NCBI GenBank assembly: GCA_002787155.1
Contig: PCVY01000072.1
Coordinates: 43,072-76,748 of the forward strand
From: Candidatus Abzuiibacterium crystallinum
GTDB lineage: Bacteria > Omnitrophota > Omnitrophia > Omnitrophales > Abzuiibacteriaceae
Reading direction: 5' to 3'
DNA length: 33,677 nucleotides
The position numbers were made by a program, and so were the translations under genes. This document shows positions 16,191 through 32,571 of the stretch, one piece after another (position 1 is the stretch's first letter; every line of letters starts with the position of its first letter). The notes under the pieces were generated by a model that was not told the DNA's origin, searched no databases, and worked only from the letters and a program-made list of their open reading frames with translations.

Positions 16191-17206
16191 AGTTTGGCAT
16201 AATTGGTTTAGGTTCGATTGGTAAAAGACATGGCCGCAATTTGATTGCCCTTGGTGTTCAACCGTCCGACATTATCGGCGTTGATTTAAGGGAGGACAGA
16301 CGTCAAGAAGCTAAAGAAAAGCTAAACTTAACCAAAACGGTGAGCAGTATTGATGAACTATGTGCCGATAAAATTGATTGCGCTTTCATTTGCTCTCCCA
16401 CTTCTTTGCATACGGCACATGCGAAACAATTAATTCAGCATGGCGTGGCGCTCTTCATTGAAAAACCGGCGGCTCATCAGTTAGACGAAGAATTGTCGGA
16501 ACTTGCGAAACAAATTGAAGCCAAGCAGATCAAAACCTTGGTGGGGTATGTGTTTCGGTTTTCTGACCATGTTCGTCATCTCAAGGCATTGCTGGATCAG
16601 CGAGTCATCGGCCGGATTTTGTCGGTTCGGGGTGAATTTAGCGAATATTTGCCTGACTGGCATCCCTGGGAAGACTACCGGAGTTTTTATATGGCTAAGA
16701 AATCTATGGGAGGCGGATCGCTCTTAGACCAAAGTCATATTTTGGATTTATGCCATTATTTGTTTGGTGAGATTGACGAAGTGTTTGCTTTTAACGGCAA
16801 AGCCAGTCAACTAGAAGTAGAGGCAGACGATTTTGCCGAGATGTCGGTTCGTTTTAAGTCTGGTCTGATCGGATCGGTTCATCAGGACATGTTTGGAAGG
16901 GAGCACAAAAAGTTTCTTGATATCAAAGGTGAAAAAGGCAATTTATTTTGGAACGTTTATCAGTTATCCGTGACCCATTATGACGGTGAAACTAAAAAAT
17001 CAAAAACATACACCTTCGGCACCGATCACAACCAAATGTATTTGAATCAAACACGGCATTTGTTAGATATTTTGGAAAACAAACAGCAGTCTCTGATCCC
17101 TCTTGAAGTAGGGTTGCACACCATGGCAGTGATTCAAGCAGTCGAGCGGTCACAGGCTGAAAAAAGGTTAGTTAAAGTTGGTGAACAGGTCGCAGTGAAA
17201 TCATGA
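16187..17206 (+). CDS. Gfo/Idh/MocA-family oxidoreductase, immediately before neuA
   Basis: This 339-residue NAD(P)-dependent sugar oxidoreductase begins with the dinucleotide motif GIIGLGSIGKRH (4-15). It has the family EKP signature (IEKPAA, 91-96) with its catalytic lysine, and a GGGSLLDQSHILDL segment in the substrate domain. Such enzymes oxidise or reduce sugar hydroxyls. A Gfo/Idh gene directly before the cytidylyltransferase is a recurring arrangement in legionaminic-type loci (the Campylobacter ptm region), which supports a role in the nonulosonic acid precursor pathway. The 4-base ATGA overlaps at both ends indicate translational coupling. The exact substrate is not established. Confidence 0.85.
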   Translation: MKFGIIGLGSIGKRHGRNLIALGVQPSDIIGVDLREDRRQEAKEKLNLTKTVSSIDELCADKIDCAFICSPTSLHTAHAKQLIQHGVALFIEKPAAHQLDEELSELAKQIEAKQIKTLVGYVFRFSDHVRHLKALLDQRVIGRILSVRGEFSEYLPDWHPWEDYRSFYMAKKSMGGGSLLDQSHILDLCHYLFGEIDEVFAFNGKASQLEVEADDFAEMSVRFKSGLIGSVHQDMFGREHKKFLDIKGEKGNLFWNVYQLSVTHYDGETKKSKTYTFGTDHNQMYLNQTRHLLDILENKQQSLIPLEVGLHTMAVIQAVERSQAEKRLVKVGEQVAVKS

Positions 17207-17949
17207 GTCTTCAAAAACCATGCGTGCTTGGATTGATTCCGGCTCGCGGTGGCAGCGAACGGTTACCGCGTAAAAATGTACGCCTTTTGGGCGGTCAGCC
17301 ATTATTGCAATATAGCATTGAAGATGCTAAACAGTCTAAATACATTGATCGTTGTCTTGTTTCGACCGATGATAACATGATTGCTGAAATAGCCAAAGAA
17401 TGCGGTGCTGAGGTTCCATTCCTCAGACCAAAGAATATTTCCGGCGGCGGTGTTTCTGACACCCCTGTTGCCGCACACGCGGTTGAGTGGCTTGAGAAAA
17501 ACGAAGGTTATCAACCTGATATCATTGTATTTTTAAGACCGACGACACCTTTTCGTAAAGATGATTTAATCGATCGCTGTATTAACATGGTAATCAAGAC
17601 AGGTTGTGATTCCGTCAGATCTATCAGGCCTGTGGCGCATTGGCATCCTTACTGGATGTTAACGATCGCAGAAGATGGCCGGGTAGAGGAGTTGATTCCA
17701 GGTAAAACGGTTGATATTTATTATCAATCTCAGCTGCTGCCGCCGGTTTATAAGCATGACGGTTATTGTGATGTGATTAGGCGGCATAATTTACCCAAAA
17801 CCTATGACGCCAAAACAACTTTAGAAGGGTTCTACGGCAAAGACAGGCGTGCGGTGATCAATGACGATGCTTACTTTGTGAATATTGATACGGAAGAAGA
17901 ATTTAAAGCAGCCGAAATGATTATTGAAAAACAGAAAACAGCTATATGA
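17203..17949 (+). CDS. neuA: CMP-nonulosonic acid synthetase (acylneuraminate cytidylyltransferase)
   Basis: This 248-residue enzyme activates the nonulosonic acid with CTP to give the CMP-sugar donor used by glycosyltransferases. LIPARGGSERLPRKN (11-25) is the nucleotide-binding signature of the NeuA/KdsB family, and VFLRPTTPFR is the conserved second motif. A late DDAYFVNIDTEEEF stretch is typical of the LegF/PtmB/NeuA group. The length is normal for the single-domain bacterial form without an esterase domain. With neuB it defines the nonulosonate identity of the locus. It is coupled to both neighbours by ATGA overlaps. Confidence 0.92.
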   Translation: MSLQKPCVLGLIPARGGSERLPRKNVRLLGGQPLLQYSIEDAKQSKYIDRCLVSTDDNMIAEIAKECGAEVPFLRPKNISGGGVSDTPVAAHAVEWLEKNEGYQPDIIVFLRPTTPFRKDDLIDRCINMVIKTGCDSVRSIRPVAHWHPYWMLTIAEDGRVEELIPGKTVDIYYQSQLLPPVYKHDGYCDVIRRHNLPKTYDAKTTLEGFYGKDRRAVINDDAYFVNIDTEEEFKAAEMIIEKQKTAI

Positions 17950-18902: not shown

Positions 18903-20465
18903 ATGATTTCATCAAAACCAAGTTTTTCACATCAAAAAAAGAATCGAATAGCCATTCAGCCTCCCGCCACATCTCAGGCAACCAGCCATTATCCTTTAAC
19001 AGCTTATCTTGATTTAATAGCTTACGGACTCATTGTGGGTTTAATGGCGGGGTATGCTTGCTGGATGTCCGATTTTGCCGAAATTCATACGCCCCTTTCA
19101 TTGCTGCCTTTTCCTGTTTTTATCGGAGAGTGGGTGCTTGGCGGGCTTTTCATTTTGGCTGTTATCAAATTTTTTTATCAACGTTCACGCATTCATTGGC
19201 GAGTAGGATTGTTTGGTCTGTTCTTGCTTTTTATTTTATTGAAGGCACTTTATGGTTATAAAGCGCATGGAGCGCTCTCTTTTCGTCATGCTGCTTTCTT
19301 CTATTATTATTGTTACGGTGTCTTTGCCTATTATTTCTATAATCCCCATTGGCTGAAGTCACCTCGTGACAAACAAATCTTGACCGCTTTGTTATTCGTT
19401 ATTGCGTGCTTTCTGGTAAGAAGTTATTATCTATTTCCATTGTTGATGGTCATCGCTGCCTTGTTAGCCCGTCAATCGCGCATTGGACAGATTACCTTAG
19501 GGCTTTTCGTTATATTCTTATTTCCATTTCACACCATGCTGCATACGAGCCGCAGTGCACTGATTGCGATTGCAGGATCGATGTTATTCTTAGCGTTCAG
19601 CTTTGTCGGCATCATGGTTAAAATTGCCAAGCGCTGGAGTATTCTCATTATCAGCCTCTTGATTTTATCACTCGGCCTGGTTTTTGTAAAAATGGACGAC
19701 TCAATCAAGCAACGGGTTAGCTCAATCGGGCATTTGCATGAATTAGTTTATATTTATCAATTGCTGCTTGTTGAATCGAATAAGCGTTTGGAACATTACG
19801 AACCCACTTATTATCCCGTTCGACTTTACAGCAGTAACGATACTTCCGATATTTCACCGGACCAAAATAAAAAATATTATACTAAATCTTATCAGGATCT
19901 TCTCACCCAAACGAACGGACGAGATCCTTCTGAGATCAAGTTAACTGATTTACCGGTTCCGATTAATCATTTAATCGAAAGGGGAAATGCGGATCACCAA
20001 TTTGCCTATGGTTTCAGTACGATGATTTGGCGGCTTTTTTTATGGACTGATATGTTGGATGATTTAAAAGACCTGGTGTTGCAAAATCCCATGAAATCAA
20101 TTATCGGTTTTGATTTTGGCAAAGTGCTTCGTTCAAAACGTCAGGAAGTGCTGATCATGGCATTTCCGGAAAGAACGGGGTGGCAGGAACCGCATAATTC
20201 AATCTTACATGTCATTTATCGTTCCGGGTTCACAGGCTTCCTCTTTATTTGCCTTTTTTGTTGGTTATTTATCCGTACCCTCAAATTGGCTTTGAAGCGC
20301 CGTCTGATCGCGGGTTTGTTCTTGTTGGGTGCGTGTTTTTACTGGATATTGTTTTCTCTGACGTTGGTCATGTTTGAATTGCCTTATTACGCGGTTTTCT
20401 TTTGGAGTTTAGCCGGCATCACAGTGGCGTATATCCGGGGTGCTGTCAATGGGGAATATGCATGA
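18903..20465 (+). CDS. O-antigen ligase/polymerase-like membrane protein (WaaL/Wzy type)
   Basis: This protein of about 520 residues has roughly 10-12 hydrophobic helices in two blocks, residues 35-260 and 430-510, separated by a large hydrophilic loop of about 170 residues likely in the periplasm. Just before the C-terminal helix block is EPHNSILHVIYRSGFTG, which matches the H-N-x-x-L...G..G pattern of the O-antigen ligase/polymerase (Wzy_C) family. It therefore probably polymerises the repeat unit or ligates the glycan to lipid A core or protein. Polymerase and ligase cannot be separated by sequence. The ATG at 18903 is favoured over a TTG at 18891; neither has a strong Shine-Dalgarno. It ends in an ATGA overlap with a deacetylase. 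Confidence 0.8.
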   Translation: MISSKPSFSHQKKNRIAIQPPATSQATSHYPLTAYLDLIAYGLIVGLMAGYACWMSDFAEIHTPLSLLPFPVFIGEWVLGGLFILAVIKFFYQRSRIHWRVGLFGLFLLFILLKALYGYKAHGALSFRHAAFFYYYCYGVFAYYFYNPHWLKSPRDKQILTALLFVIACFLVRSYYLFPLLMVIAALLARQSRIGQITLGLFVIFLFPFHTMLHTSRSALIAIAGSMLFLAFSFVGIMVKIAKRWSILIISLLILSLGLVFVKMDDSIKQRVSSIGHLHELVYIYQLLLVESNKRLEHYEPTYYPVRLYSSNDTSDISPDQNKKYYTKSYQDLLTQTNGRDPSEIKLTDLPVPINHLIERGNADHQFAYGFSTMIWRLFLWTDMLDDLKDLVLQNPMKSIIGFDFGKVLRSKRQEVLIMAFPERTGWQEPHNSILHVIYRSGFTGFLFICLFCWLFIRTLKLALKRRLIAGLFLLGACFYWILFSLTLVMFELPYYAVFFWSLAGITVAYIRGAVNGEYA

Positions 20466-21373
20466 ACGCTTTAAAATCAGTCGACTTACGGCAAGGAAAT
20501 GGTCTCTGCCTTTTGATTCACTGTTTGAAGAAGAAATCGGACCCGCCGCCTCCGTTTCACAGTAACTTATTTATCCCGCTCGAAGCATTAGAATTACTGG
20601 TTCAGCAACTGCTAGAGAGCGGCTATCAATTTACGTTGCCGGGTGTTTTACTCCAATCAAATCGTCCGCAATGTTCCATCACCTTTGATGACGGCTATTA
20701 CAACAATCACCTTTTCTTGCCATTGGCGGAGAAATACCGTATTCCTTTTTTGGTGTTTCCAAATTCATATAATATTCAAAATAACATGCCTTTTATTTGG
20801 GATTTATGGAAATCAAAGAAATCGGAAGAGTGGCCATTTACTTCAGTCGACTATAAAGGTCTTTATGAGGATGTGTTGCCCGAAGAGAGAAAGCAGTTGC
20901 TCAATGATCAATATCGGCCGTTCACGTTTGACGAACTCAAAAAGCTCGCGCAAAATCGTTTCGTACGTTTAGGCGCGCACGGACACACGCATCAGCCGTT
21001 TGTGGATGCATATGCCAGTCAGTTTCATCAAGAAATCGATCAAAATCTAAATTTCTTAGGAACAGTGACAGATTCACCAATTGAAGATTTTGCTTTTCCG
21101 TGCGGTTTATATACACCGCATGCCATGAGACAAGCGCAGCAAGAATTTAAAAGAGTTTATACGATTAGCGGCGGCCCATGGCATTTAAATCAAAAGGTGG
21201 TGCACCGTATTTCCCTTGAAAATTCTGATGAGCGGGGGACGCTTGAGCAGCAAATCATCCGCTCGTTGGTTTGGTGGAACCAATTAAAAAAAAGAATCAA
21301 TATGATGGCATATACACAACCCGGATTAAAACCTTTGATCCACGCTGCCAAAGCAATTAAGAGTCGTTTTTAA
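20462..21373 (+). CDS. Polysaccharide deacetylase (CE4/NodB type)
   Basis: This 303-residue protein carries the CE4 signatures TFDDG (74-78), with catalytic and metal-binding aspartates, and AHGHTH (172-177) supplying the two metal histidines. A later FAFPCG segment fits motif 3. It should remove an N- or O-acetyl group from a sugar or glycan. No signal peptide is evident, so it may act in the cytoplasm on a precursor rather than on the exported chain. The ATG at 20462 in an ATGA overlap is chosen over an ATG at 20402 inside the membrane protein. It is the second deacetylase-like gene of the operon but unlike the DTEG-type one. Confidence 0.85.
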   Translation: MNALKSVDLRQGNGLCLLIHCLKKKSDPPPPFHSNLFIPLEALELLVQQLLESGYQFTLPGVLLQSNRPQCSITFDDGYYNNHLFLPLAEKYRIPFLVFPNSYNIQNNMPFIWDLWKSKKSEEWPFTSVDYKGLYEDVLPEERKQLLNDQYRPFTFDELKKLAQNRFVRLGAHGHTHQPFVDAYASQFHQEIDQNLNFLGTVTDSPIEDFAFPCGLYTPHAMRQAQQEFKRVYTISGGPWHLNQKVVHRISLENSDERGTLEQQIIRSLVWWNQLKKRINMMAYTQPGLKPLIHAAKAIKSRF

Positions 21374-21385
21374 TTCCTCACAAAG

Positions 21386-23293
21386 ATGAATAGCATGGCA
21401 TTCAACTCGAATAAAACCGTTTACCTCATATCGGTTGCGACTGCCCAAAGAAAATTAGCCAAAGTAAATCTACAGGGGGCAAAAACTGTCTTTTATTTGA
21501 GTCATGATTACTTTTCATATGCTCAAATCAGGTCGCAATTAGGCGATCAATTTCATTTACAGATGCTGCAAGATAAATTCCACACGATGCTCAAGAAAAA
21601 ACAGCCGGCTTATTTGAAATTTTGTCGCAATTTAGCTAAACAATACGATCCTGATATTTGGTGGCGAACCCATTTCGCGTCACGCAACGCTGCTTCGACC
21701 CCATTTCTGCGGCACCTCATTTATTTATGCTGTGCCTTGCAGATCACCAAGGAAACCAATGAATCTTTGGTTTTTATTTCGGAATCACCGGCTCTCCTTC
21801 AAACCATCGAAGAGATTTTAAAAAGTAAGGGAGAAAGTGTTAAACGTATCCGCTGTTTGAATGATTGGCTTACTCGACTACTGCTTTTGATTAAACTGAT
21901 GGCACGCGGGCTGATCTTTCTGAAAGAGATGATTTCTAACTTTTGGATAGTTAAACGTTTAAAATTTGACGAACCACCAATCGCATCAAAACCACGTGTT
22001 CTTCTGAGAAGTTGGTTCTCAAAGGGTTCTTTGGATGCGAACGGTGTTTATGACGATCGAAATTTTGGCGTTTTGGTTGACTGGTTTCAAAAAAAAGGAG
22101 TGGACGTCTGGATTAGTCCGATGTTTTTTAATTTGGACAAGAAACTTTCTGAATATTTGACGCTGATGAAAAAAAGCCGGACGCCATTTTTACTGGCGGA
22201 AACTTACTTAAATTGGGTTGATATTCCTCGTCTTTTATGGCGTGGTATCCGGGAGCTTGAGTTAGCAGTTCACCGTTTAACATTTGAAGAATTACCGGTT
22301 GGTGCTTTGGCGTGCGAGGCGCATTGGCAAACAAGCCTGTACCCGGAATTGCTCCAATGGAATAGCATCGATTTGGTTTTGAAGCGATTGAGAAAACGCG
22401 AACTTGCATTTGATAGTTTCTTTTATCCGATGGAAAACAATGTGGTGGAAAAAACTTTCTTGCGTGCGGTGCGAAAATATTATCCCAATGCCGGTGCGTT
22501 TGGTTTCCAGCATACCGTTTGGTACAAAGAACAGCTCGGGATGTATTTAACCTCAGAAGAATTGGGAGAACATCCTTTGCCGGATCGGATTATTTGCAGC
22601 GGGGAAGCCTACCCAGATATTTTAATGCAAGCCGGATTTCCACGAAATCTTCCTGTCTTAGGACCAAATTTGAGATTTCAGTATGTGAATCAGGAGTCGG
22701 CTAAAAGAAGGTCTTTTAAAGGTGAAAAAGGGGCAAAAAACCTCCTAATATTACTGACTTTTGATTTCAATAACGGACTTGAAATCCTTGATCAATTGAA
22801 GGATGTCCTAAAGAAGATCAACCATGGTAAAATATACATCAAATATCATCCGCTCAATTCGCGTCAAATGCTAGAAACCTACTTGGCATTTATACATTTT
22901 CCTAAATATGAGTGGGCGGAAGGTGGGATGGCCGACTGGTTGGAGCGTTCAGACGCCGTGATTGTGACAGGTGGTTCGATTGCCATTTTAGAATCAATTG
23001 GAGAAGGCGTTCCGGTTATTCGATTTAAACCACAAAACAATTTCTATTTTGAGCCTTTTTGGAACGATTATTACTTGCCCGTCTCACAAAACACTGCTGA
23101 ATTACGTCAGGCCATTCACCAGGCGTATGAATTAAGCGACTCCGAATTGGATTTGTTAAAACAATTTGGCCGGCAAATCAAAGATGAATATTTTGAGCCC
23201 GTGTCAGAAACAAAATTAAATGTATTTCTTGATTTAGTGAAAAAAAGGACAGAGTCAAGTGAACAGAACGGAAATCAAACAACAACTGATTGA
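21386..23293 (+). CDS. Large GT-B-like surface carbohydrate protein (possibly TIGR04326-type)
   Basis: This 635-residue protein has no signal peptide. Its C-terminal half resembles the donor domain of GT-B-like capsule/O-antigen proteins: KIYIKYHPLN, then SDAVIVTGGSIAILESIGEGVPVIRF, corresponding to the loop-helix-GxP element. The N-terminal half (about 1-330) has short hydrophobic stretches around 190-215 but no clear membrane anchor. Length and features recall the TIGR04326 surface carbohydrate biosynthesis family described from Leptospira O-antigen loci; this identification is from memory of the family and needs a profile search. It could transfer the nonulosonic acid or another residue. 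It overlaps the acyl carrier protein gene by 35 bases. Confidence 0.6.
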   Translation: MNSMAFNSNKTVYLISVATAQRKLAKVNLQGAKTVFYLSHDYFSYAQIRSQLGDQFHLQMLQDKFHTMLKKKQPAYLKFCRNLAKQYDPDIWWRTHFASRNAASTPFLRHLIYLCCALQITKETNESLVFISESPALLQTIEEILKSKGESVKRIRCLNDWLTRLLLLIKLMARGLIFLKEMISNFWIVKRLKFDEPPIASKPRVLLRSWFSKGSLDANGVYDDRNFGVLVDWFQKKGVDVWISPMFFNLDKKLSEYLTLMKKSRTPFLLAETYLNWVDIPRLLWRGIRELELAVHRLTFEELPVGALACEAHWQTSLYPELLQWNSIDLVLKRLRKRELAFDSFFYPMENNVVEKTFLRAVRKYYPNAGAFGFQHTVWYKEQLGMYLTSEELGEHPLPDRIICSGEAYPDILMQAGFPRNLPVLGPNLRFQYVNQESAKRRSFKGEKGAKNLLILLTFDFNNGLEILDQLKDVLKKINHGKIYIKYHPLNSRQMLETYLAFIHFPKYEWAEGGMADWLERSDAVIVTGGSIAILESIGEGVPVIRFKPQNNFYFEPFWNDYYLPVSQNTAELRQAIHQAYELSDSELDLLKQFGRQIKDEYFEPVSETKLNVFLDLVKKRTESSEQNGNQTTTD

Positions 23294-23513
23294 AATCTTT
23301 TCCGTTATTTTCGATTTGACTGATCAAGGCGAGATCGAACGATTAGAAGCGGCTCATTCTGAGAAATGGGACTCTTTAAATCATCTGAATTTAATGACTG
23401 CCATCGAGCAGAAATTCGAAATTGAACTTACGCCGGACGAAATGGATTTGATACATTCTTTTGATTTAGCACTCAGTGTCACGCAGGAGAAAGTGCAGGA
23501 GAAGTTGGTCTAA
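23259..23513 (+). CDS. Acyl carrier protein
   Basis: This is an 84-residue four-helix carrier protein. The attachment serine for phosphopantetheine is S39 in WDSLNHLNL, matching the DSL motif of acyl and peptidyl carrier proteins, with the acidic surface (EIERLE, EIELTPDEMD) typical of ACPs. The start is GTG, with AAGGA upstream, inside the end of the preceding gene; this unusual overlap implies coupling. It lies directly before an FkbH-like gene, so it is most likely a dedicated carrier for that enzyme rather than the housekeeping ACP. The needed phosphopantetheinyl transferase is not in the window. Confidence 0.9.
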   Translation: MNRTEIKQQLIEIFSVIFDLTDQGEIERLEAAHSEKWDSLNHLNLMTAIEQKFEIELTPDEMDLIHSFDLALSVTQEKVQEKLV

Positions 23514-25282
23514 TGCAATTCTTGGAAGCACTCAAATATTCAAAGCTCAAAATGGCAGGTTCAGCCAGGCAAGTGATGGTGCTGGCGAACTATGAGATGG
23601 ATCAATTGAAAACGTATGTGGAAGCGTACGCCAAACAAGCGGATCTTCATTGGAAAGCAGAACAATGCGGATATGGTAATTTGATGACGGCCCTCATGGC
23701 CGGTCAAACTAAAGCCGATTATCAAATCATCTTTCTTTTCCTGGAAGATTTTTTCCCCGCCTTATCTTACCGGACGCAAGCACAATGGACGCATGTCTTA
23801 TTGGAAGACTTACATGCGGAATCGGAAACTGCAGTGAAAAAGTTCTGCAAAACGATTCAAAATTATCTTAAAAAATGCCCCATCAAAACGGTGATTGTCC
23901 CGCCCATTTTAAACGCACCGCCTTTATGGCCCAATGCGCCAGTTTTGATGAATGATATTCAAAATTTGCTTCCGTATGTTCAAGCGCAATTATGGGCACA
24001 TTTCAAGTCTGATGATCTGGTAGAAATTCTCGATCTCAACCAGAGTCTTTCCGCCTTGTCGCCTGATCAGGTGCGTGACTCGAAGGCATTGTTCCACAAA
24101 GGATTCCCGATGAGTATTGAAGCCATTGATTGCATCGCGGCTGATTGCATTCGATCCTTGTCCGGTGCTTTTCAGGCAGCTGCCAAAAAATTGCTCGTGA
24201 CAGATTTGGACCAAGTGCTTTGGCGGGGCGTTATTGGTGAAGACGGTATAGATCAGATTTCAGCCCATCCTGACCGGGAAAACCATTGCCACCATGTTTT
24301 TCAGAAATTCTTAAAATTATTGGTATCCGAAGGAACGCTTTTAGCGGCAGCATCCAAAAATAACGCAGAAGATGTATCGGCTTTATTGGATCAACCGTCG
24401 CAATTAAAGAAAGCAGGCATGATCTTGGCGCGTAATGACTTTGCAGAAATCAGTTGCCAATGGACGGAGAAATCAAAACAGATTCAAGCCATTTGCCGCC
24501 GTCTTAACATACTTCCCCAAGACGTCGTTTTTGTGGATGATAACCCAATGGAGTTGTGGGAAGTCAGCCATCATTTACCCGAAGTGTCTTGTGTGGCATT
24601 TCCAAAATCCTCCAGCCAATTGGATACGTTTCTAAAAGAACTGCGCTCCTACTTTATCAAATCAAAGTTAACGGAGGAAGACAAAAAACGATCACGTTTC
24701 TACGAACAAAAAAAGAAAGCCGAAGCGTTTAAATTAGAGCACGCGAATCTGGACGATTACTTAGGTTCGTTGCAAATGACAGCTTCCATTGAGCAGGTAA
24801 CTGATTCGAATCAGGAGAGACCGTTCCAACTTTATAATAAAACCAATCAATTTAATTTAACGGGTGAACGTCTCAGTCAAGCAGAGTGGCGTCAGTTTCT
24901 GGAAGCGCCGAACCGCTATATTTTTACGGCAGATTTAAACGATCAATTTGGAGATCACGGGATTGTGGCGGTAGCGCTGGTTTATTTAAAAGAGCAGACT
25001 GTCATTTTGCATAACCTGGTTCTGAGTTGCCGCGTTTTCAACCGCACAGTAGAAACGGCATTTTTGGAGTGGATTGCTGCCCAATTCAAAGAAGAGGCCG
25101 TCACCGTGAAAGGCAGATTGCGCCATACGGCTAAGAACGAACCCTGCCGGGCCTTTTTCAGTCAACATTGTTTTGTTGAGAAAAAAGAAGATGCGAATAC
25201 AAAGTGGTTTGAAGCGGCTTTGCCGCTTAAGTTGCCGAAGCATTTTATCGGCGTTCAGTCCGAATCTCTGCTTAAAAAATGA
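23513..25282 (+). CDS. FkbH-like HAD/GNAT protein (glyceryl-ACP-type)
   Basis: This 589-residue protein has the FkbH (HAD IIIC) core with TDLDQVLWRGVIGEDG near 230-245, where D231 and D233 form HAD motif I, and VFVDDNPMELWEV further on. An N-terminal BF1531-like region covers about 1-220, and a C-terminal GNAT-like part about 410-560 contains the NQFNLTGERLS segment seen in the family. Characterised FkbH enzymes load a glycerate unit from 1,3-bisphosphoglycerate onto an ACP. In the usual LLA(V/I)CSKN motif the cysteine is here alanine (A280 in AAASKNN). The start overlaps the ACP stop by one base, with AGGAG 11 bases upstream. Confidence 0.85.
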   Translation: MQFLEALKYSKLKMAGSARQVMVLANYEMDQLKTYVEAYAKQADLHWKAEQCGYGNLMTALMAGQTKADYQIIFLFLEDFFPALSYRTQAQWTHVLLEDLHAESETAVKKFCKTIQNYLKKCPIKTVIVPPILNAPPLWPNAPVLMNDIQNLLPYVQAQLWAHFKSDDLVEILDLNQSLSALSPDQVRDSKALFHKGFPMSIEAIDCIAADCIRSLSGAFQAAAKKLLVTDLDQVLWRGVIGEDGIDQISAHPDRENHCHHVFQKFLKLLVSEGTLLAAASKNNAEDVSALLDQPSQLKKAGMILARNDFAEISCQWTEKSKQIQAICRRLNILPQDVVFVDDNPMELWEVSHHLPEVSCVAFPKSSSQLDTFLKELRSYFIKSKLTEEDKKRSRFYEQKKKAEAFKLEHANLDDYLGSLQMTASIEQVTDSNQERPFQLYNKTNQFNLTGERLSQAEWRQFLEAPNRYIFTADLNDQFGDHGIVAVALVYLKEQTVILHNLVLSCRVFNRTVETAFLEWIAAQFKEEAVTVKGRLRHTAKNEPCRAFFSQHCFVEKKEDANTKWFEAALPLKLPKHFIGVQSESLLKK

Positions 25283-26415
25283 TCCCCTCGTTTGAGCCTA
25301 CTGCCAAAATTGAAAGTACTGTTCAACTTCGACAGGCCAAGAAAGCTGATGAATCCGAAATTATTCAACTTTGTGCCAAAATTTTTTCATTAAATCCGGA
25401 TTATTTAACCAAGATTTGGCAGTGGCTTTATCACGAAAACCCGGCTCGTTCAGATGATCAGCCTCAAGGCTGGGTTTTGATTTCGAATGGTCGTGTGGTG
25501 GGATATAGCGGCTCTATTCCGCAATGGTTTCGTTTGCGGGGCGAGAAGGTTATCTTCTCGTTTGCATCTTGTTTTTGTGTTTTACCGCCTTATCAACGGC
25601 ATGGCATTAAATTAGCCAGACAGTTTTTATCCGACCCTATGATTTCATATCCCATGACCAATTCGGCCAATGAAAAGACAGCAGGCATTTACAAATTCTT
25701 TGGTTGCATGGAAATAAGGCAATCAATGAAACGAATGATTTGGATTCGGCAGGTTGATCAACTGATCAAATTGCGATTACCGGCTGTGTGGCCAGGTTTG
25801 GCGTGGCCGCTGCAATTTGTATGGTCGATTGTTTCAGGTATTTGCCGTGGCATTTTTTGGACCAAAACCCGCAGTCGGTTCTTATTTGATGTGACTGATA
25901 AAGTTCCCGAGACGTTGGATGCCCTCGATGAACGGCTGTGCTCTTTATTTCCGATTGCTTCTGTGAGAAGCCGCGAATGGCTTACATGGCGATTATTTGC
26001 TCATCCGGAAAAACCTTATCAGCTGGTTTTAGTTCGAGACACCTCTCAAATACTTGCGGGCTATATCGTCACAGCCGAGCGGATCGTTAAAAACAATCTT
26101 AAAGCATTGGTGGTGCTTGATATTTTTTGCGATGATCGTGATCGCAAGCTTCTTCGTTCCATTGTATCGTATCTGCTGACACAAACCGAAAGGGGTCATT
26201 TTGATGTTTTGATCATTGAACCAATCACTGATAGAATCCAATCAGTGCTGAACGGAAAAGGATTTGTGGGATTAAATATCGAGAAAAAAACAATCGTGCA
26301 AAATAAGAACGGCCAGTTTTCTCAGACGCAAAATACAGAACAAGCATGGCGCATGTCTTCTTTAGACGGTGATCAGGACACCATGATTTGGACAGCATGC
26401 CCGGGGGATATATGA
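25279..26415 (+). CDS. GNAT-family acyltransferase
   Basis: This 378-residue protein has an N-terminal GNAT fold. QRHGIKLA (106-113) fits the Q/R-x-x-G-x-G/A acyl-CoA/pantetheine-binding loop, and SANEKTAGIYKFFGC resembles the family's final strand-helix. A longer second half (about 160-378) may be a second GNAT-like domain, as in two-domain N-acyltransferases. Its position after the ACP and FkbH-like genes suggests it moves a carrier-bound acyl group to an amino sugar. That is inference; acetyl-CoA could equally be its donor. ATGA overlaps couple it to both neighbours. Confidence 0.65.
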   Translation: MIPSFEPTAKIESTVQLRQAKKADESEIIQLCAKIFSLNPDYLTKIWQWLYHENPARSDDQPQGWVLISNGRVVGYSGSIPQWFRLRGEKVIFSFASCFCVLPPYQRHGIKLARQFLSDPMISYPMTNSANEKTAGIYKFFGCMEIRQSMKRMIWIRQVDQLIKLRLPAVWPGLAWPLQFVWSIVSGICRGIFWTKTRSRFLFDVTDKVPETLDALDERLCSLFPIASVRSREWLTWRLFAHPEKPYQLVLVRDTSQILAGYIVTAERIVKNNLKALVVLDIFCDDRDRKLLRSIVSYLLTQTERGHFDVLIIEPITDRIQSVLNGKGFVGLNIEKKTIVQNKNGQFSQTQNTEQAWRMSSLDGDQDTMIWTACPGDI

Positions 26416-27566
26416 GCCAGCCCGAATGGCGCATCGGCGACAAAAAATCGTTTACGCACCAATTTACTCGTGAGCAAGTGGAACAGTTTGCCGCTTTAAC
26501 GGGCGATCGAAATCCTGTCCACTTAGATGATGCTTATGCGCGCCGGACGCCTTTAGGAGCGCCTGTCGTTCACGGCATGTTAGCCGCTTCATACATTTCA
26601 ACCTTGGTGGGCATGCATTTGCCGGGGCCCGGTGCTTTATGGACTTCTTTTCAAGTGGATTGGCGGCACATGATTCGGGTGGGGGATACGCTTGAATTCG
26701 AAGCAGAAATATTACAAATCAGCCAATCAACACAAACCATGGAAATTAAGCTAACTGCCAAAGAGGTAAAAACCGGTAAAGAGTGTTTGACGGGCAAAGG
26801 AAAGGTGATGATGATGGAAGAGCCAAAACGCGAAAAAAAAAAGTCCATGAAAGGTGAGCGAATCCTTGTAACGGGAGCCAGCGGAGAAGTAGGCGCAGCG
26901 GTATGCCGTTCTTTAGCGGCATTGGGTTGCCGTCTGATTTTATGGGGACGAAACATGGACCGTCTAAAAAAAATTGCCAAAGAATTTCCCGATCAGTGCG
27001 AACAATGTGAATCAGTTGACTTAAATCAACCCAAGATAATTGCGAGTGCCCTTAAGAAAATAGCTGACGGAAAAATTTACGGTTTTGTACACGCTGCCTC
27101 AGCGCCCATTGTTTATTCCGATGTCGATCAGGCGTCAAATCAAGAAGCACTTCAGCAACAATGGCAGATAACCGTAGGCGCTTTTAATCAAATAGCACTT
27201 TCGCTTATTCCCCGTATGAATGAAGGCGGTGTGATTATTCCGGTGTTAACACAATATGTGGAATCAGCTGTCCCGCCCAAGATTTCTGCCTATGTCTCAG
27301 CCAAAACGGCTTTGTGGGGATTGGTTCGCTGTATGGCAAACGAATTAGGTATTCGCGGGATTCGGTGCAATGCCGTTTCTCCCAGCATGATCAACACACC
27401 TTTTTCGATGGAAGTCCCTGTTCGCATGAAACAAATCGAAGCCAACCGGAACCCTATGAAGCATTTGTGTCAAGTCGAGGATGTGGCCGATGCTGTGGCT
27501 TATCTCGTGAGCCCAAAGGCCAGCTTTGTTAATGGTGTCAACTTAGCAGTGACCGGCGGCTTATAA
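26412..27566 (+). CDS. MaoC hydratase / SDR ketoreductase fusion
   Basis: This 384-residue protein joins two domains. Residues about 1-140 form a MaoC-like hot-dog (R)-specific enoyl hydratase: LTGDRNPVHLDD (29-40) with catalytic-type D32 and H37, then VVHGMLAASY. Residues about 148-384 are a classical SDR with TGASGEVG (154-161), an active-site YVSAK (Y294, K298), and NAVSPSMINT near the end. The expected catalytic serine, 13 positions before the tyrosine, falls at Q281 (T280 adjacent). The pair could interconvert 3-keto, 3-hydroxy and 2-enoyl thioesters on the neighbouring ACP, for example to make a 3-hydroxyacyl substituent. It ends the main operon, and a 172-base gap follows. Confidence 0.85.
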   Translation: MSQPEWRIGDKKSFTHQFTREQVEQFAALTGDRNPVHLDDAYARRTPLGAPVVHGMLAASYISTLVGMHLPGPGALWTSFQVDWRHMIRVGDTLEFEAEILQISQSTQTMEIKLTAKEVKTGKECLTGKGKVMMMEEPKREKKKSMKGERILVTGASGEVGAAVCRSLAALGCRLILWGRNMDRLKKIAKEFPDQCEQCESVDLNQPKIIASALKKIADGKIYGFVHAASAPIVYSDVDQASNQEALQQQWQITVGAFNQIALSLIPRMNEGGVIIPVLTQYVESAVPPKISAYVSAKTALWGLVRCMANELGIRGIRCNAVSPSMINTPFSMEVPVRMKQIEANRNPMKHLCQVEDVADAVAYLVSPKASFVNGVNLAVTGGL

Positions 27567-27699: not shown

Positions 27700-27728
27700 T
27701 TGAGTCTTGACGTAAAAGATGTCCTCAT

Positions 27729-27734
27729 AAGGTG
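27729..27734 (+). promoter_or_regulatory. Shine-Dalgarno choosing a GTG start
   Basis: AAGGTG lies just upstream of the GTG at 27739. It favours that codon over the TTG at 27700 for the second Gfo/Idh gene, whose conserved N-terminus (LRTLIIGYGYMG) begins only after the GTG. Confidence 0.5.
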
Positions 27735-27738
27735 TTGT

Positions 27739-28770
27739 GTGAAAAAAGCGCCACTAAGAACGCTCATCATTGGTTACGGGTACATGGGTGAGATCAGACG
27801 GGGAGTGATAGAACAAAATCCGCGTCTTGAACTTGCGGGTATTTGTGAAACCAGGCCTGAAATCAGAAAAAATATTATCGGCGCCCAAGTCTTTGAGGAC
27901 TACGAACAGGCTTTAGGAGAAAACGTCGATATCGTATTTGTCTGCACACCCAACAACATTTCGCCTGACATATGCATTAAAAGTTTAAATTTGGGAAAGC
28001 ACGTTTTTTGCGAAAAGCCGCCAGGCCGATCGGTAGATGACATTAAAGAAATCATGCGGGCCGAAAACCCGTCCACCAAACTCATGTTTGGATTTAATCA
28101 TCGTTTTCACCCCGGTATTTTAAGAGCTAAGTTAATTGCCACCGACAAACGTTTGGGAAACATTTTGGGATTAAGAGGTATCTACGGAAAATCGGGCGGT
28201 GCCAACTTTAAGCATTCATGGCGAAACAAAAGGCAAATTTCAGGCGGCGGCATTTTACTTGATCAAGGGATTCACATGATGGATATTTTTCGCTTCTTTT
28301 GCGGTGATTTCGACGAGGTGAAATGTTTTGCAGATAATCGTTTTTGGAAGTTTGATGTCGAAGATAATGCTTTTGTGATTCTAAAGAATTCAAGCGGTCA
28401 AATGGCAAGTCTTCACTCGTCTTCCACTTTGTGGAAGCACACTTTTCGTTTGGATATTATTTTAGAGAAAGGTTATATCGTTTGTGAAGGCTTATTATCA
28501 AAAAGCGGCAGCTACGGGCGGGAAAAATTAGTCATCGCCCGCCGTGAATTTGAAGATGAAAGCAATACAGCGGGCAATCCGATGGAAGAAATTGCATATT
28601 TTGATCGGGACACCTCATGGGAATTGGAAGTGGAAGAGTTCGTGAAGTGTATCGATCAAAACATAGTTGTCACCAAAAGTTCATCGCGCGATGCTTTGCG
28701 TGTGATGGAGTTGATTGAACAAGCATATCAGGATGCGGGGATTCGCGCGAGTGAGGTGTGTCCGAAATGA
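27739..28770 (+). CDS. Gfo/Idh/MocA-family oxidoreductase (second copy)
   Basis: This 343-residue NAD(P)-dependent oxidoreductase has LIIGYGYMGEIRRG near the N-terminus (9-22), the CEKPPG signature with the catalytic lysine, and GGGILLDQGIHMMD in the substrate domain. It is clearly a different enzyme from the Gfo/Idh gene before neuA, with shared fold but low obvious identity. It likely oxidises or reduces a sugar intermediate for this second gene group. It ends in an ATGA overlap with a zinc-ribbon methyltransferase-like gene. Confidence 0.85.
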   Translation: MKKAPLRTLIIGYGYMGEIRRGVIEQNPRLELAGICETRPEIRKNIIGAQVFEDYEQALGENVDIVFVCTPNNISPDICIKSLNLGKHVFCEKPPGRSVDDIKEIMRAENPSTKLMFGFNHRFHPGILRAKLIATDKRLGNILGLRGIYGKSGGANFKHSWRNKRQISGGGILLDQGIHMMDIFRFFCGDFDEVKCFADNRFWKFDVEDNAFVILKNSSGQMASLHSSSTLWKHTFRLDIILEKGYIVCEGLLSKSGSYGREKLVIARREFEDESNTAGNPMEEIAYFDRDTSWELEVEEFVKCIDQNIVVTKSSSRDALRVMELIEQAYQDAGIRASEVCPK

Positions 28771-29777
28771 AAAACATTATTTCGTTTGCTGAATTTACCA
28801 ATGCGGATTTAAAACCGACGGCGCTGATTGATCGATACAAAACATTAACAGTCGAAGGTATTCAACAATTTTTTGATCAACCGTCACGGGTCAGCATATT
28901 GGTTTGTCCTGCTTGCCAGTCTGGTAATTCAGATTCTGCTTTTCAGAAAATGGGAATGGATTATCTTTTGTGCCGTGCATGCGGAACGCTTTATGTGGCG
29001 CCGCGTCCGACGGATGAGGCTATCAAACAATTCTATATACATTCTGCTGCTCGACAATTCTGGAATCAAGAATTATCGAAAACGACTAAAGATAAACGTG
29101 AGACAAAAATCTTAAAGCCGCGTTATCAGTGGGTTCTTGACTCCACCCAAGAGAACATGAGTACGGCTATGCACATTGTGGATGTTCACCCAAATCAGGC
29201 GGTCTCTTTAATAGAATTGGCAAGTCTAGAAGGGTTTACGCGTAAAACAGTCGTGATGCCGTTGTTTGACACAGCAAGCGCGGAAACCAGCAAGCAAGTT
29301 GAGGTGATCAATTCACCGCTTGATCAAGCATCTTTATCCAATGCGGATGTCGTGACTTTGTTTGAAGTGCTGGATAGAACCTCAGATGCCAATACTTTGT
29401 TGAAAGCCGTGAATCGAATCTTAAAACCAAAAGGTTTGTGTTTTGTCACAGCCATTTTAACGAGTGGATTTGATATTCAAACACTTTGGTCAGAAGCGCC
29501 CAACCTTTATCCGCCTGATCGTTTAAACGTGTTTTCCCTGGAAGGTATCAAGCGGCTTTTTGAACGTAACGATTTTGAATGTTTAGAAATAAGCACGCCG
29601 GGTATTTTAGACTTGGAAAATGTGAAACAGGCAGAACAAGCGGTCATGCCAAGATTTTTGAAGTACTTGTTTGAACATCGTGATGATGCCGTCCGTAAGT
29701 CATTCCAGCAATTTCTTCAATCAAGTCTTCTCAGTTCTTACGGGCGTTTTTTAATTCAAAAGCGGGTGAAAGGATAA
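28767..29777 (+). CDS. Zinc-ribbon methyltransferase-like protein with degenerate SAM motif
   Basis: This 336-residue protein has the same plan as the one at 13972: a zinc ribbon (C47, C50, C69, C72) and a Rossmann-like C-terminal region with VVTLFEVLDR and a following LKPKGLCFVT strand. However, the SAM-binding glycine motif is missing: the equivalent strand is MHIVDVHPNQ (135-144) rather than a D-x-G-x-G form. It may have lost SAM binding, bind another ligand or act as a partner protein. The ATG at 28767 follows GAGGTG and overlaps the previous stop by four bases. Confidence 0.65.
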   Translation: MKNIISFAEFTNADLKPTALIDRYKTLTVEGIQQFFDQPSRVSILVCPACQSGNSDSAFQKMGMDYLLCRACGTLYVAPRPTDEAIKQFYIHSAARQFWNQELSKTTKDKRETKILKPRYQWVLDSTQENMSTAMHIVDVHPNQAVSLIELASLEGFTRKTVVMPLFDTASAETSKQVEVINSPLDQASLSNADVVTLFEVLDRTSDANTLLKAVNRILKPKGLCFVTAILTSGFDIQTLWSEAPNLYPPDRLNVFSLEGIKRLFERNDFECLEISTPGILDLENVKQAEQAVMPRFLKYLFEHRDDAVRKSFQQFLQSSLLSSYGRFLIQKRVKG

Positions 29778-29780
29778 TTC

Positions 29781-30395
29781 ATGTCTCACATTCTTCGTTA
29801 TTTGGATGAAGTGGCCGAAATCTCGCAAAAATTGGATCGGGAGCAATTAGAACAATTCACACTGTCTTTGCTCCAAGTTCGCGAAAGGAAAGGCCGCCTT
29901 TTTTTAATCGGGGTTGGCGGCAGCGCAGGTAATTGCTCACATGCAGTCAATGATTTTCGCAAACTTGGCGGTTTTGAAGCTTATTCGCCGGTTGACAATG
30001 TGCCGGAACTCACCGCCCGGACAAATGATGAAGGTTGGCATACTGTTTTTGAAGCATGGCTTCGGGGCAGTCGCTTAACGAGTCGCGATGCTGTTCTTGT
30101 GTTATCGGTGGGAGGCGGCGATAAAGAACGCAATATCAGTGCAAACATTGTTTATGCGCTTGAATATGCCAAGCAAGCAGGGGCAACCATTTTAGGGATT
30201 GTCGGTAGAGACGGTGGTTTTACGGCGCAGGTGGCAGATGTTTGCGTGATTATTCCACCGATTAATCCTGATATGATTACGCCGCACACAGAAGCTTTTC
30301 ACATGGTTATTTTACATATGATTATTGCGGATCCCAGAATGATGGTCATGGGAAATAAATGGGAGTCATCTGTTAAAGAGAAGGTTCATCGGTAA
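29781..30395 (+). CDS. SIS-domain sugar isomerase (GmhA-like)
   Basis: This 204-residue protein is a single SIS domain of the phosphoheptose isomerase type. FLIGVGGSAGNCSHAVNDFRK (around 41-61) is the phosphosugar-binding loop and helix, and LVLSVGGGDKERN is the second phosphate-binding loop. GmhA isomerises sedoheptulose 7-phosphate to D-glycero-D-manno-heptose 7-phosphate. No HldE or HldD partner is present, so the substrate here may be a different sugar phosphate. It begins four bases after the preceding stop with AAAGGA upstream, and it precedes two aldolase-family genes. Confidence 0.85.
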   Translation: MSHILRYLDEVAEISQKLDREQLEQFTLSLLQVRERKGRLFLIGVGGSAGNCSHAVNDFRKLGGFEAYSPVDNVPELTARTNDEGWHTVFEAWLRGSRLTSRDAVLVLSVGGGDKERNISANIVYALEYAKQAGATILGIVGRDGGFTAQVADVCVIIPPINPDMITPHTEAFHMVILHMIIADPRMMVMGNKWESSVKEKVHR

Positions 30396-30412
30396 GAATT
30401 TACATTCGATAG

Positions 30413-30417
30413 GGAGG
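30413..30417 (+). promoter_or_regulatory. Strong Shine-Dalgarno before the transaldolase-like gene
   Basis: GGAGG within AGGGAGGAAG sits nine bases before the ATG at 30427. It is one of the strongest sites in the window, suggesting higher translation of this gene than of the coupled ones around it. Confidence 0.65.
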
Positions 30418-30426
30418 AAGTAACTT

Positions 30427-31137
30427 ATGGCAATTTTTCTGGATACGGCAAAAATCGAAGACATCCAAAAGTTTCATCGCATGGGGATTATACGCGGTGT
30501 CACGAGTAACCCAACGCTTTTGTATCAAGCCGGCATTGTCGGTACATTTGATGAAATGAAAAAATATTTTATTCACATGGCTGAGCTCATCCAGCCGCTT
30601 CCTTTGTCAGTTGAGGTAACGAGCAATGATCAAGAGGAAATGATTCGGCAAGCCAAAGAATTTGCCAGTTGGGCTAAGAACATTAACGTGAAAATCACCA
30701 TTCATGGCCCTCAAGGTGAACTCCATAATTTGGAAGTGGTGCATCATCTCGAAAAAGATTTAAATATCCGTGTTAACGTGACAGCAATGATGAGCGCTCA
30801 GCAATGTCTGGTGGCTGCCATGGCGGGGGCAAGTTTCGTCTCACTTTTTTGCGGCCGGGTCAATAACATGGGCTACAACGCCATTGACGAAATTAAAAAA
30901 TTACGCCGGTTGTTAGATGAATTTCAGCTCAAAGCAAAAATCATTGCGGCTTCAACGCGTGAAATCTTAAACGTGGTGGAATGGCTGGGTGCCGGCGCTC
31001 ACATTGTGACCGTGTTGCCCAATTTGCTTGAAGGAATGATTGTGCATCCTTATTCAAAAGAAACAGTGCAAATGTTTCTACGTGATGGTGAAAGGGGATT
31101 GATGGCAGATGTCAAATCAAAAGCCGGTACGGTTTAA
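30427..31137 (+). CDS. Transaldolase-family aldolase (fructose-6-phosphate aldolase-like)
   Basis: This 236-residue protein belongs to the small class I transaldolase/F6P aldolase (TalC/Fsa) group. FLDTAKIEDIQ (4-14) and GVTSNPTLL (24-32) are the opening signatures. K89 in NVKIT is at the Schiff-base lysine position, and the RVNVTAM and SLFCGRVNNMG segments follow as in the family. Such enzymes cleave or form a carbon-carbon bond using dihydroxyacetone or a ketose phosphate donor. A housekeeping pentose phosphate role is possible, but a dedicated sugar-building role fits its position between a GmhA-like isomerase and an HpcH-type aldolase better. Confidence 0.88.
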   Translation: MAIFLDTAKIEDIQKFHRMGIIRGVTSNPTLLYQAGIVGTFDEMKKYFIHMAELIQPLPLSVEVTSNDQEEMIRQAKEFASWAKNINVKITIHGPQGELHNLEVVHHLEKDLNIRVNVTAMMSAQQCLVAAMAGASFVSLFCGRVNNMGYNAIDEIKKLRRLLDEFQLKAKIIAASTREILNVVEWLGAGAHIVTVLPNLLEGMIVHPYSKETVQMFLRDGERGLMADVKSKAGTV

Positions 31138-31906
31138 TTTAAAGCAAAAGCTTAGAAACCGCGAGCGTGTTTTCGGCACGTGGGCGTCACTTTTTCACCC
31201 CTCCATTGCCGAAATCTTCGGAGAAATGGGCGCTGATTTTCTAGGGCTCGATCTTGAACATGGGACGATGAGTCATGGAGATGCTCAAACCATGATTTTG
31301 GCCAGCCAATCAAAAAATGTTCCTTGTTTGCCGCGGATTGCCTCGCACAACATCGAAATGGGAAGACGTTTACTTGATTCGGGCGCTGATGGACTCATTA
31401 TTCCGATGGTCAATACTGCCAAACAAGCCAGCGATCTTGTCACGGCTTATAAATATCCGCCCTTGGGTCATCGCGGCTATGGCGTTGCCCGCGCTCAAGG
31501 TTATGGATTTTCTTTTAGTGAATACGCAAAAACCTGGAATGACTCCTCTACCTTCATCGTTCAAATTGAATCCATCAAAGCGATGGAACATATAGATGAA
31601 ATATTGAAGCTTGACCTCATTGATGGCGTGATGGTAGGGCCGTATGACATTTCAGGCTCTCTTGGCATTCCGGGTGAGTTAGAACATCCGCGGGTCCAAG
31701 AAACCGTTAATCAGATAATTCAGGCGTGCCAGACACATGGCAAATCGTGCGGGACACAGTTGGTTGATCCTGACACAGAGCAATTGGATCAAGCCTTTAA
31801 AGCGGGTTTTACATTCGTCATTTTGTCATCCGATGTTTTTCTGCTTTGGAAATGGAGCGAGCGCATGAAGGGTTTGCTTCATCCTTCCGTGCCGCAAAGA
31901 GTTTAA
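31109..31906 (+). CDS. HpcH/HpaI-family class II aldolase
   Basis: This 265-residue enzyme has the family DLEHG motif (48-52), which includes the metal-binding glutamate region, the LDSGADGLIIPMV strand-loop, GHRGYG and the metal or substrate glutamate and aspartate of VQIES and VGPYDIS. HpcH/HpaI enzymes perform reversible aldol reactions between pyruvate (or oxaloacetate-derived enolate) and an aldehyde. In a glycan locus it could extend a sugar aldehyde with pyruvate to a 2-keto-3-deoxy acid, but cleavage in the other direction is also possible. It overlaps the previous gene by 29 bases, and an AAAGGGGA site precedes it. Confidence 0.88.
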   Translation: MSNQKPVRFNLKQKLRNRERVFGTWASLFHPSIAEIFGEMGADFLGLDLEHGTMSHGDAQTMILASQSKNVPCLPRIASHNIEMGRRLLDSGADGLIIPMVNTAKQASDLVTAYKYPPLGHRGYGVARAQGYGFSFSEYAKTWNDSSTFIVQIESIKAMEHIDEILKLDLIDGVMVGPYDISGSLGIPGELEHPRVQETVNQIIQACQTHGKSCGTQLVDPDTEQLDQAFKAGFTFVILSSDVFLLWKWSERMKGLLHPSVPQRV

Positions 31907-31911
31907 CAGCC

Positions 31912-32571
31912 GTGAAATACAAACTTATTGCTCTTGATTTTGATGGTGTGATTGTCGAATCCGTTTTGATCAAGGACCGAGCATTTCAAGACTTGTTTGG
32001 CCGTTTCCCGGCACACTTAGATGAGATCATGGCTTATCATCGGTCGCATCATGCCGTGATCCGCTTCGAAAAATTTCGGCATATTTTTAATCACATCCTC
32101 AAAAAGCCTTACACGGATGACATCGAAAAAGAATTAGCGGATCGTTTTCACAAAGACATTATCCATCAAATGCTGGCGTGTCCTTTTGTCAAAGGGGCAG
32201 AAGCATTTTTGGAATTCTTTTCTCAGCAAGTGCCCCTTTATTTAATTTCCATATCACCGGCTGATGAGTTAAACGACATCCTAAAGCAAAGAAAATTAAA
32301 CGCCTATTTTAAAGAAGTCTATGCGGTGCCTTGGAAGAAAAAAGACGCCTTGCTGGACATCCAAAGAAAAGAGCAGGTTAGTTCCGGGGAAATCATTTTT
32401 ATCGGTGACAGCCCGGAAGATCAGAAGGCAGCTTCGGAAGCAGGTGTCGACTTTTTGGCGCGGCAAAGTCAAAATCAAATGCCAAATGAGACATCACCCC
32501 TTTTTGATGATTTGGAAGCAGCACACAGCTGGTTGCTTAAACGGATGAGTGCTTATGAGTCGGCCCATTAA
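31912..32571 (+). CDS. HAD-superfamily phosphatase
   Basis: This 219-residue hydrolase has the HAD motif I ALDFDGVIVES with nucleophile D9 and acid D11, motif II in LISISPA, and motif IV FIGDSPEDQKAA. A helical cap lies at about 15-90. It should remove phosphate from a small phosphorylated substrate, plausibly the sugar made by the neighbouring aldolases. The GTG at 31912 is chosen because upstream in-frame codons overlap the aldolase gene and the conserved strand starts just after it. It starts five bases after the aldolase stop. Confidence 0.85.
   Translation: MKYKLIALDFDGVIVESVLIKDRAFQDLFGRFPAHLDEIMAYHRSHHAVIRFEKFRHIFNHILKKPYTDDIEKELADRFHKDIIHQMLACPFVKGAEAFLEFFSQQVPLYLISISPADELNDILKQRKLNAYFKEVYAVPWKKKDALLDIQRKEQVSSGEIIFIGDSPEDQKAASEAGVDFLARQSQNQMPNETSPLFDDLEAAHSWLLKRMSAYESAH

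Follow-up and report, generated by a model that had tools for sequence, protein, structure and literature searches.

A 33,677-nucleotide stretch of the genome of the uncultured bacterium Candidatus Abzuiibacterium crystallinum (Candidatus Omnitrophota), hereafter the window, carries four intact consecutive open reading frames (ORFs) on the + strand at 23259-27566. They encode an acyl carrier protein (ACP), an FkbH enzyme, a tandem-GNAT acyltransferase and a fusion of a MaoC dehydratase with an SDR reductase. This four-gene set is real, conserved and informative. We consider it probable that a C3 hydroxyacyl group is built on the window ACP and put on a glycan. The fuller proposal, in which the four genes act as a cassette with a nearby deacetylase to transfer a hydroxyacyl group to an amino sugar, by way of glyceryl-ACP and then lactyl-ACP, stands in our judgment at an even balance, and the naming of lactyl as the specific group is tentative.

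Architecture and active sites of the four genes

The source of the window is contig C46 in a 2.48-Mb draft genome, which is 95% complete. The four genes are translationally coupled: the junction of ACP with FkbH reads TAATG, and those of FkbH with GNAT and of GNAT with MaoC-SDR both read ATGA, the latter at 26412; because of this last overlap, 26412 is a likelier start for MaoC-SDR than 26388. A first-pass annotation of this DNA had described four overlapping genes of this content, and the ORFs, the family matches and the coupled junctions confirm that description. The grouping is not due to chance, since dozens of distant genomes have these genes side by side.

The window ACP scores 16.5 bits against PF00550 (cut-off 20.8), matches NCBIfam ACP models with E values of 4e-4 to 5e-3, and keeps the WDS motif of neighboring cassette ACPs (WDSL, Ser39). 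It looks dedicated to this set, because a separate, better-scoring ACP is encoded on another contig of the host genome (C48). One AcpS-type gene is present in the host genome, on contig C27, so both a phosphopantetheine serine motif and an AcpS-type enzyme are available for the ACP. FkbH matches TIGR01686 with an E value of 3.8e-77 (259.6 bits, above the cut-off of 146.65). It keeps the HAD residues D231, D233, S281, K320 and D342/D343 and the motif S505-C506-R507, which were invariant in alignments of 48 and then 18 FkbH proteins; in its predicted model the HAD domain matches 3slr and the C-terminal part has a GNAT-like fold. The 378-amino-acid (aa) GNAT has a weak sequence match, to PF13527 only, and is a tandem GNAT by predicted fold: its AlphaFold (AF2) model, with a mean pLDDT of 75, finds N-myristoyltransferases (NMT) and Eis2 as best PDB matches, at a TM score of ~0.5. 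The MaoC-SDR fusion matches PF01575 (E 5.5e-18) and PF13561 (E 2.4e-36). The MaoC catalytic dyad D40/H45 of GDxNPxH is kept (numbering from 26388), and the SDR domain has TGASGEVG (TGxxxGxG) and YVSAK (YxxxK), with Leu-Thr at the catalytic Ser position.

Recurrence of the cassette and its interchangeable parts

We surveyed ~20 kb around most FkbH matches in the phylum, together with 80 loci from other records found with an alignment of cassette FkbHs; a single-sequence search of genome contigs with the window FkbH, which is too divergent a query, gave no match. Co-occurrence was counted in 128 FkbH loci. Among the 51 from Omnitrophota, an ACP lies beside FkbH in 30 by hidden Markov model, with ACP-like ORFs in ~8 more; 27 of the 51 have MaoC and 6 have an AcpS-type gene. 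The corresponding numbers for the 77 loci from other bacteria and archaea (Nitrosopumilales, Asgard archaea, Nitrospinia, Myxococcota, Acidobacteria, Anaerolineales, KSB1, Burkholderiales and others) are 72 for ACP, 29 for MaoC and 12 for the AcpS-type gene. MaoC and SDR are fused or separate and stand on either side of FkbH, varying by locus. Of the 28 MaoC domains above cut-off in the 43 genomes that have a stand-alone FkbH, 27 are no more than 4.5 kb from FkbH and the remaining one is part of a 2641-aa frame; just 2 of 50 KAS III matches are near FkbH. Since MaoC clusters with FkbH and KAS III almost never does, MaoC and SDR most simply act on the group that FkbH loads. Comparative genomics shows that FkbH, ACP, MaoC and SDR are one functional unit, which sometimes has its own AcpS-type phosphopantetheinyl transferase and which pairs with a GNAT or MBOAT acyltransferase. 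We judge the annotation's proposal of an ACP-borne acyl transfer to be right.

The same associations bear on 3-hydroxybutyryl, another group that the annotation had put forward. MaoC and SDR would then be an ordinary FabG/hydratase pair working on a C4 chain (acetoacetyl/crotonyl), 3-hydroxybutyryl would be borne by the ACP, FkbH would contribute in some other way, and the GNAT would yield an N-3-hydroxybutyryl sugar. Among the N-acyl groups of fatty-acid type that bacterial glycans carry, N-3-hydroxybutanoyl has been described as the most abundant (PMC10609480), and the viosamine island of P. syringae, which has KAS III, ACP and an acetyltransferase, needs vioR (3-oxoacyl-ACP reductase) for modified viosamine (PMC3927599). 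Furthermore, a KAS III with an intact Cys-His-Asn triad adjoins MaoC/SDR in two Omnitrophota loci (L040 1176-2291, L052 5583-6584), where it would serve either chain extension or as a third kind of acyltransferase. However, neither the window cassette nor 25 of the 27 MaoC cassettes include a ketosynthase, and the host genome has no PF08541 (KAS III) match. This route also leaves FkbH without a role, yet MaoC occurs almost only with FkbH. We consequently regard a 3-hydroxybutyryl group as unlikely, and as less likely than a C3 acyl group.

Two pairs of parts replace one another or travel together. MaoC and VOC occur together in 2 of the 128 loci, MaoC alone in 54 and VOC alone in 24 (p 1.6e-5). 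The FkbH tree requires at least 36 changes for MaoC and 21 for VOC, and phylogenetically independent pairs number 0.2 of the same and 7.2 of the opposite kind (median p 0.016). This near-exclusion is what one would expect if the two were alternative ways of tailoring a single thioester. The VOC gene belongs to the glyoxalase/VOC family PF13669, which includes methylmalonyl-CoA epimerase. GNAT and MBOAT were never found together in FkbH loci (Fisher p 5e-4), an exclusion on which we do not rely, as the tree gives only ~1 informative pair. Of the 22 GNAT loci, in turn, 13 have a polysaccharide deacetylase at a distance of up to 6 kb, versus 12 of 106 other FkbH loci (p 4.7e-6). This pairing holds in both data sets separately (p 0.008 and 3e-5) and on the tree (6.5 same pairs versus 0 opposite, median p 0.03), and the two genes abut in several other loci.

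The loci annotated in detail, namely the window, a KSB1 locus (L144) and a locus of the ammonia-oxidizing archaeon Nitrosotenuis (L079), are all glycan loci. The last holds FkbH, ACP, MaoC and an AcpS-type gene at 8437-12751, with NeuB 5 kb away and a hexapeptide acyltransferase gene adjoining the deacetylase in place of GNAT. MBOAT, ACP and FkbH stand in a row on Sinorhizobium meliloti megaplasmids (L165 5522-11407, CP090105.1; L164 773-5807, CP050512.1), and in CP090105.1 a VOC gene lies directly upstream of the row, making this a cassette of the VOC/MBOAT kind. FkbH is followed by a MaoC-SDR relative on a mobilizable Subdoligranulum plasmid (L163, OY725877.1, 151388-154697), a location from which the cassette may move between gut bacteria. 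FkbH domains were also seen in Omnitrophota in open frames of ~4,000 to 25,332 codons (G070:C5, G116:C17, G341:C15, G235, G383:C239, G141:C3); a Pfam search of two stretches of such giant frames (L070, L071) found no polyketide synthase (PKS) domains. A MaoC/SDR pair on a Cetobacterium plasmid was rejected as a cassette, as it sits in an acyl-CoA metabolism cluster.

Proposed pathway and related systems

From the gene content, the retained active-site residues and the associations above we infer the following order of catalytic steps. AcpS would arm the dedicated ACP, and FkbH would take D-1,3-bisphosphoglycerate, strip its phosphates and load glyceryl onto the ACP. MaoC would then dehydrate this beta-hydroxyacyl-ACP, the glyceryl group passing through an enol that tautomerizes to pyruvyl, and the SDR would reduce the ketone to give lactyl-ACP. 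Finally, the deacetylase would free an amine on the sugar precursor, and the tandem GNAT would move the acyl group from the ACP onto that amine. An FkbH/DH/KR loading module of bryostatin reportedly forms a lactyl group, an account that our literature search did not recover. Loading of glyceryl from 1,3-bisphosphoglycerate onto ACP by FkbH takes place in known pathways (PMC7489565, PMC8949500, PMC3679948), and the FkbH product has been modeled as D-lactate-ACP in a study that nevertheless cites a paper on glycerate (PMC7901079).

The glyceryl group may instead never become lactyl. MaoC-SDR could oxidize it (to 2-hydroxy-3-oxopropionyl or hydroxymalonyl), invert C2 or be a stabilizing partner, and the glyceryl group, modified or not, would be transferred, perhaps after O-methylation by methyltransferases of the cluster. 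Dehydrogenases do oxidize glyceryl-ACP in methoxymalonyl-ACP pathways (PMC7489565, PMC3679948), D-glyceroyl amides, like 3-hydroxybutyryl amides, are known on O-antigens (PMC10609480), and the window cluster holds methyltransferases. The methoxymalonyl pathways, however, use a 3-hydroxyacyl-CoA dehydrogenase and an acyl-CoA dehydrogenase, not MaoC and SDR, and the acid-base dyad conserved in MaoC is of the dehydratase type. We find transfer of a glyceryl-type group doubtful.

Several points weigh against the pathway through lactyl-ACP. Dehydration by MaoC of a substrate with an alpha-hydroxyl would be unusual, many cassettes have no GNAT, and to our knowledge there is no biochemistry for any cassette member. 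In the window itself the deacetylase lies 3.9 kb from the GNAT, unlike the abutting pairs of several other loci, and the ACP falls short of the PF00550 cut-off. Divergence also marks the window FkbH, which has at most 28% identity to others and a long branch that the tree tool flagged as uncertain; at nine positions that are otherwise conserved it has a different residue (e.g. R238 in place of G, Q316 in place of N). The KAS III genes of the two Omnitrophota loci count on the same side. We are least certain about the identity of the acyl group and, for the window, about this divergence of FkbH.

The likeness to rhizobial Nod factor synthesis lies in the logic of N-acylation. There, NodB frees an amine and NodA re-acylates it from the dedicated ACP NodF, and the SDR NodG is present; the ketosynthase NodE makes a long fatty acyl group, and the acceptor is a chitin oligomer. 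A deacetylase, an acyl-ACP-dependent transferase, a dedicated ACP and an SDR would thus be common to both systems, whereas the acyl source differs, the Nod system has neither FkbH nor MaoC, and NodA belongs to a different, smaller family than the window GNAT. The window deacetylase matches no NCBIfam model, TIGR04243 included, and neither a NodB equivalog nor a NodA was recognized, the transferase being the 378-aa protein with its weak PF13527 match.

Another related system is the viosamine island of P. syringae (vioS, vioR, acp, vioB; PMC3927599), which, like the P. aeruginosa PAK flagellar glycosylation island, provides an amino sugar with its acyl group through a dedicated ACP, a reductase of the SDR family and an acyltransferase. 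In these islands, however, the chain comes from KAS III (C4, 3-hydroxybutyryl), for which the host genome had no PF08541 candidate, and they have no FkbH and no MaoC; VioB is annotated as an acetyltransferase and not as a tandem GNAT. Flagellin glycosylation islands likewise carry ACP and reductase (FabG) genes in nonulosonate/pseudaminate clusters, but their acyl group is activated by a ligase or LuxE (ACP, FabG, LuxE/LuxC, ligases), and text searches of the two reports found no mention of FkbH (PMC7874193, PMC4875605). In O-acylation by MBOAT/SGNH systems such as alginate AlgI/AlgX, the MBOAT, often with a GDSL protein, corresponds to the alternative transferase of FkbH-ACP cassettes elsewhere; the window has a GNAT, and the cytoplasmic acetyl donor for alginate is described as unidentified, not as an FkbH-loaded ACP (PMC4432689). 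C. jejuni Cj1302-Cj1304 was not used as a precedent, as nothing beyond the name FabH2 for Cj1303 could be confirmed.

With the glycerate-utilization modules of tetronate and methoxymalonyl pathways the window shares FkbH and a stand-alone ACP, and the same loading chemistry is expected. FkbH plus ACP is the glycerate-utilization hallmark of tetronate clusters (PMC7489565, PMC4979870), and a KAS III/E2-like/FkbH/ACP set of tetronate make-up was found on a Pseudalkalibacillus plasmid, so that the cassette might feed a tetronate or polyketide small molecule and not a glycan. But the window has no PKS, KAS III or E2-like acyltransferase gene, no FabH-like condensing enzyme beside FkbH and ACP, and no acyl-CoA dehydrogenase of the kind found in those modules. 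It has instead MaoC-SDR, a deacetylase and a glycan locus with NeuB, a CMP transferase, an aminotransferase and putative glycosyltransferases as neighbors, and a GNAT or MBOAT stands in place of the condensing enzyme. A small-molecule product is therefore highly improbable.

The annotation had also stated that it knew of no description of an ACP-borne assembly route with this make-up. For ACP-borne routes in general such a claim of novelty goes too far, as the viosamine island (PMC3927599) and the ACP, FabG and ligase genes beside pseudaminate genes (PMC7874193, PMC4875605) illustrate. The FkbH-based glycan version was not found described in the searchable literature, from which subscription journals are largely missing, and this is not proof of novelty.

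It is possible, in a broader and again tentative proposal, that bacteria and archaea share a widespread modular system that takes C3 hydroxyacyl groups for glycans directly from glycolysis. Glyceryl loaded by FkbH onto ACP would be converted to lactyl by MaoC-SDR or to L-glyceryl by VOC, and delivered by GNAT with the deacetylase or by MBOAT. From D-1,3-bisphosphoglycerate FkbH would give D-glyceryl; that a VOC epimerase could yield the L form is conjecture. Exopolysaccharides are listed with glyceryl and lactyl substituents, gellan with L-glycerate (PMC4432689), and in the searchable papers we found no described source enzymes for the glyceroyl, lactyl and related hydroxyacyl groups of bacterial surface sugars. 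If true, such a system would account for D-glyceroyl amides, for lactyl groups and for esters of L-glycerate, of which the one in gellan is an example. It would link glycolysis to surface chemistry through machinery discussed so far mainly for polyketides, and the cassette would be a genome signature from which to predict hydroxyacyl modifications of glycans in uncultured lineages, including ammonia-oxidizing archaea. The question of the acyl source is directly testable, since the cassette is compact and expressible in a laboratory strain, and the FkbH/ACP/MBOAT/VOC relatives on S. meliloti megaplasmids offer a genetically tractable host.

Glycan neighborhood of the window

The features of the window are collected in Table 1; putative glycosyltransferase genes and methyltransferase genes are also part of the cluster.

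Table 1. Coordinates of the four-gene set and of other features in the window.
Feature	Position	Strand	Remarks
NeuB-family nonulosonate synthase	7579..8625	+	TIGR03569 E 4.9e-108, 361 bits, below the 399.65 cut-off
NeuD/PglD-type sugar acyltransferase	8615..9262	+	TIGR03570 171 bits, above cut-off
DegT aminotransferase, best match PseC	12758..13975	+	TIGR03588 E 2.6e-89, below cut-off
CMP-sugar transferase, best match PseF	17203..17949	+	TIGR03584 E 1.8e-38, below cut-off
Polysaccharide (NodB-type) deacetylase	20402..21373	+	PF01522 E 2.9e-11; TFDD and HGHTH kept; probable true start ATG 20462
Shine-Dalgarno-like AAGGAC	23245..23250	+	5' of the ACP GTG start; read in the sequence
Dedicated ACP	23259..23513	+	84 aa; GTG start at 23259; attachment Ser39 (WDSL) at 23373-23375
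FkbH enzyme	23513..25282	+	N-terminal part, HAD-IIIC phosphatase domain, C-terminal GNAT-like fold; TIGR01686
Tandem-GNAT acyltransferase	25279..26415	+	Weak PF13527; predicted fold; proposed acyl-ACP to amino-sugar N-acyltransferase
MaoC dehydratase-SDR reductase fusion	26412..27566	+	PF01575 and PF13561; ORF opens at TTG 26388, ATG 26412 preferred
Six downstream genes: Gfo/Idh, methyltransferase, SIS, FSA/transaldolase, HpaI-type aldolase, HAD	27700..32571	+	Domain searches

NeuB lies 15 kb upstream of the four-gene set on the same strand, in one same-strand gene run with the PseF-like gene. The annotation's placement of the set inside a nonulosonate operon is borne out to this extent, its wording being a little generous. 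It had also suggested looking for the set beside neuB in other genomes. NeuB is found within 20 kb of FkbH in 18 of 47 Omnitrophota FkbH loci versus 1.5 expected, and the KSB1 locus (L144) has NeuB, deacetylase, MaoC/SDR, FkbH, ACP, GNAT, UDP-GlcNAc 2-epimerase and a CMP transferase in one gene run; most cassettes, however, have no NeuB nearby. This enrichment may mean no more than that the cassettes lie in glycan clusters, so the cassette is tied to nonulosonic acid only loosely, and a specific tie is not supported as the annotation put it. A nonulosonate acceptor for the acyl group is plausible, and the NeuD-like gene of the window could already serve N-acylation of a nonulosonate precursor.

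Two more neuB genes lie upstream of the window on the same contig (G000:C46 ~31876-36726), and the host may make more than one nonulosonate. At 10184-11872 the window encodes a UDP-sugar dehydrogenase with a CBS domain earlier in the same frame (PF00571, then PF03721/PF00984/PF03720), an unusual combination. The six downstream genes are collinear in L040 12441-17380 (G336), near an FkbH cassette, and five of the six recur near an FkbH cassette in G084 (L161 13066-16001 with L039 80-4145). They possibly provide a pyruvate-aldolase route to an unusual sugar acid.

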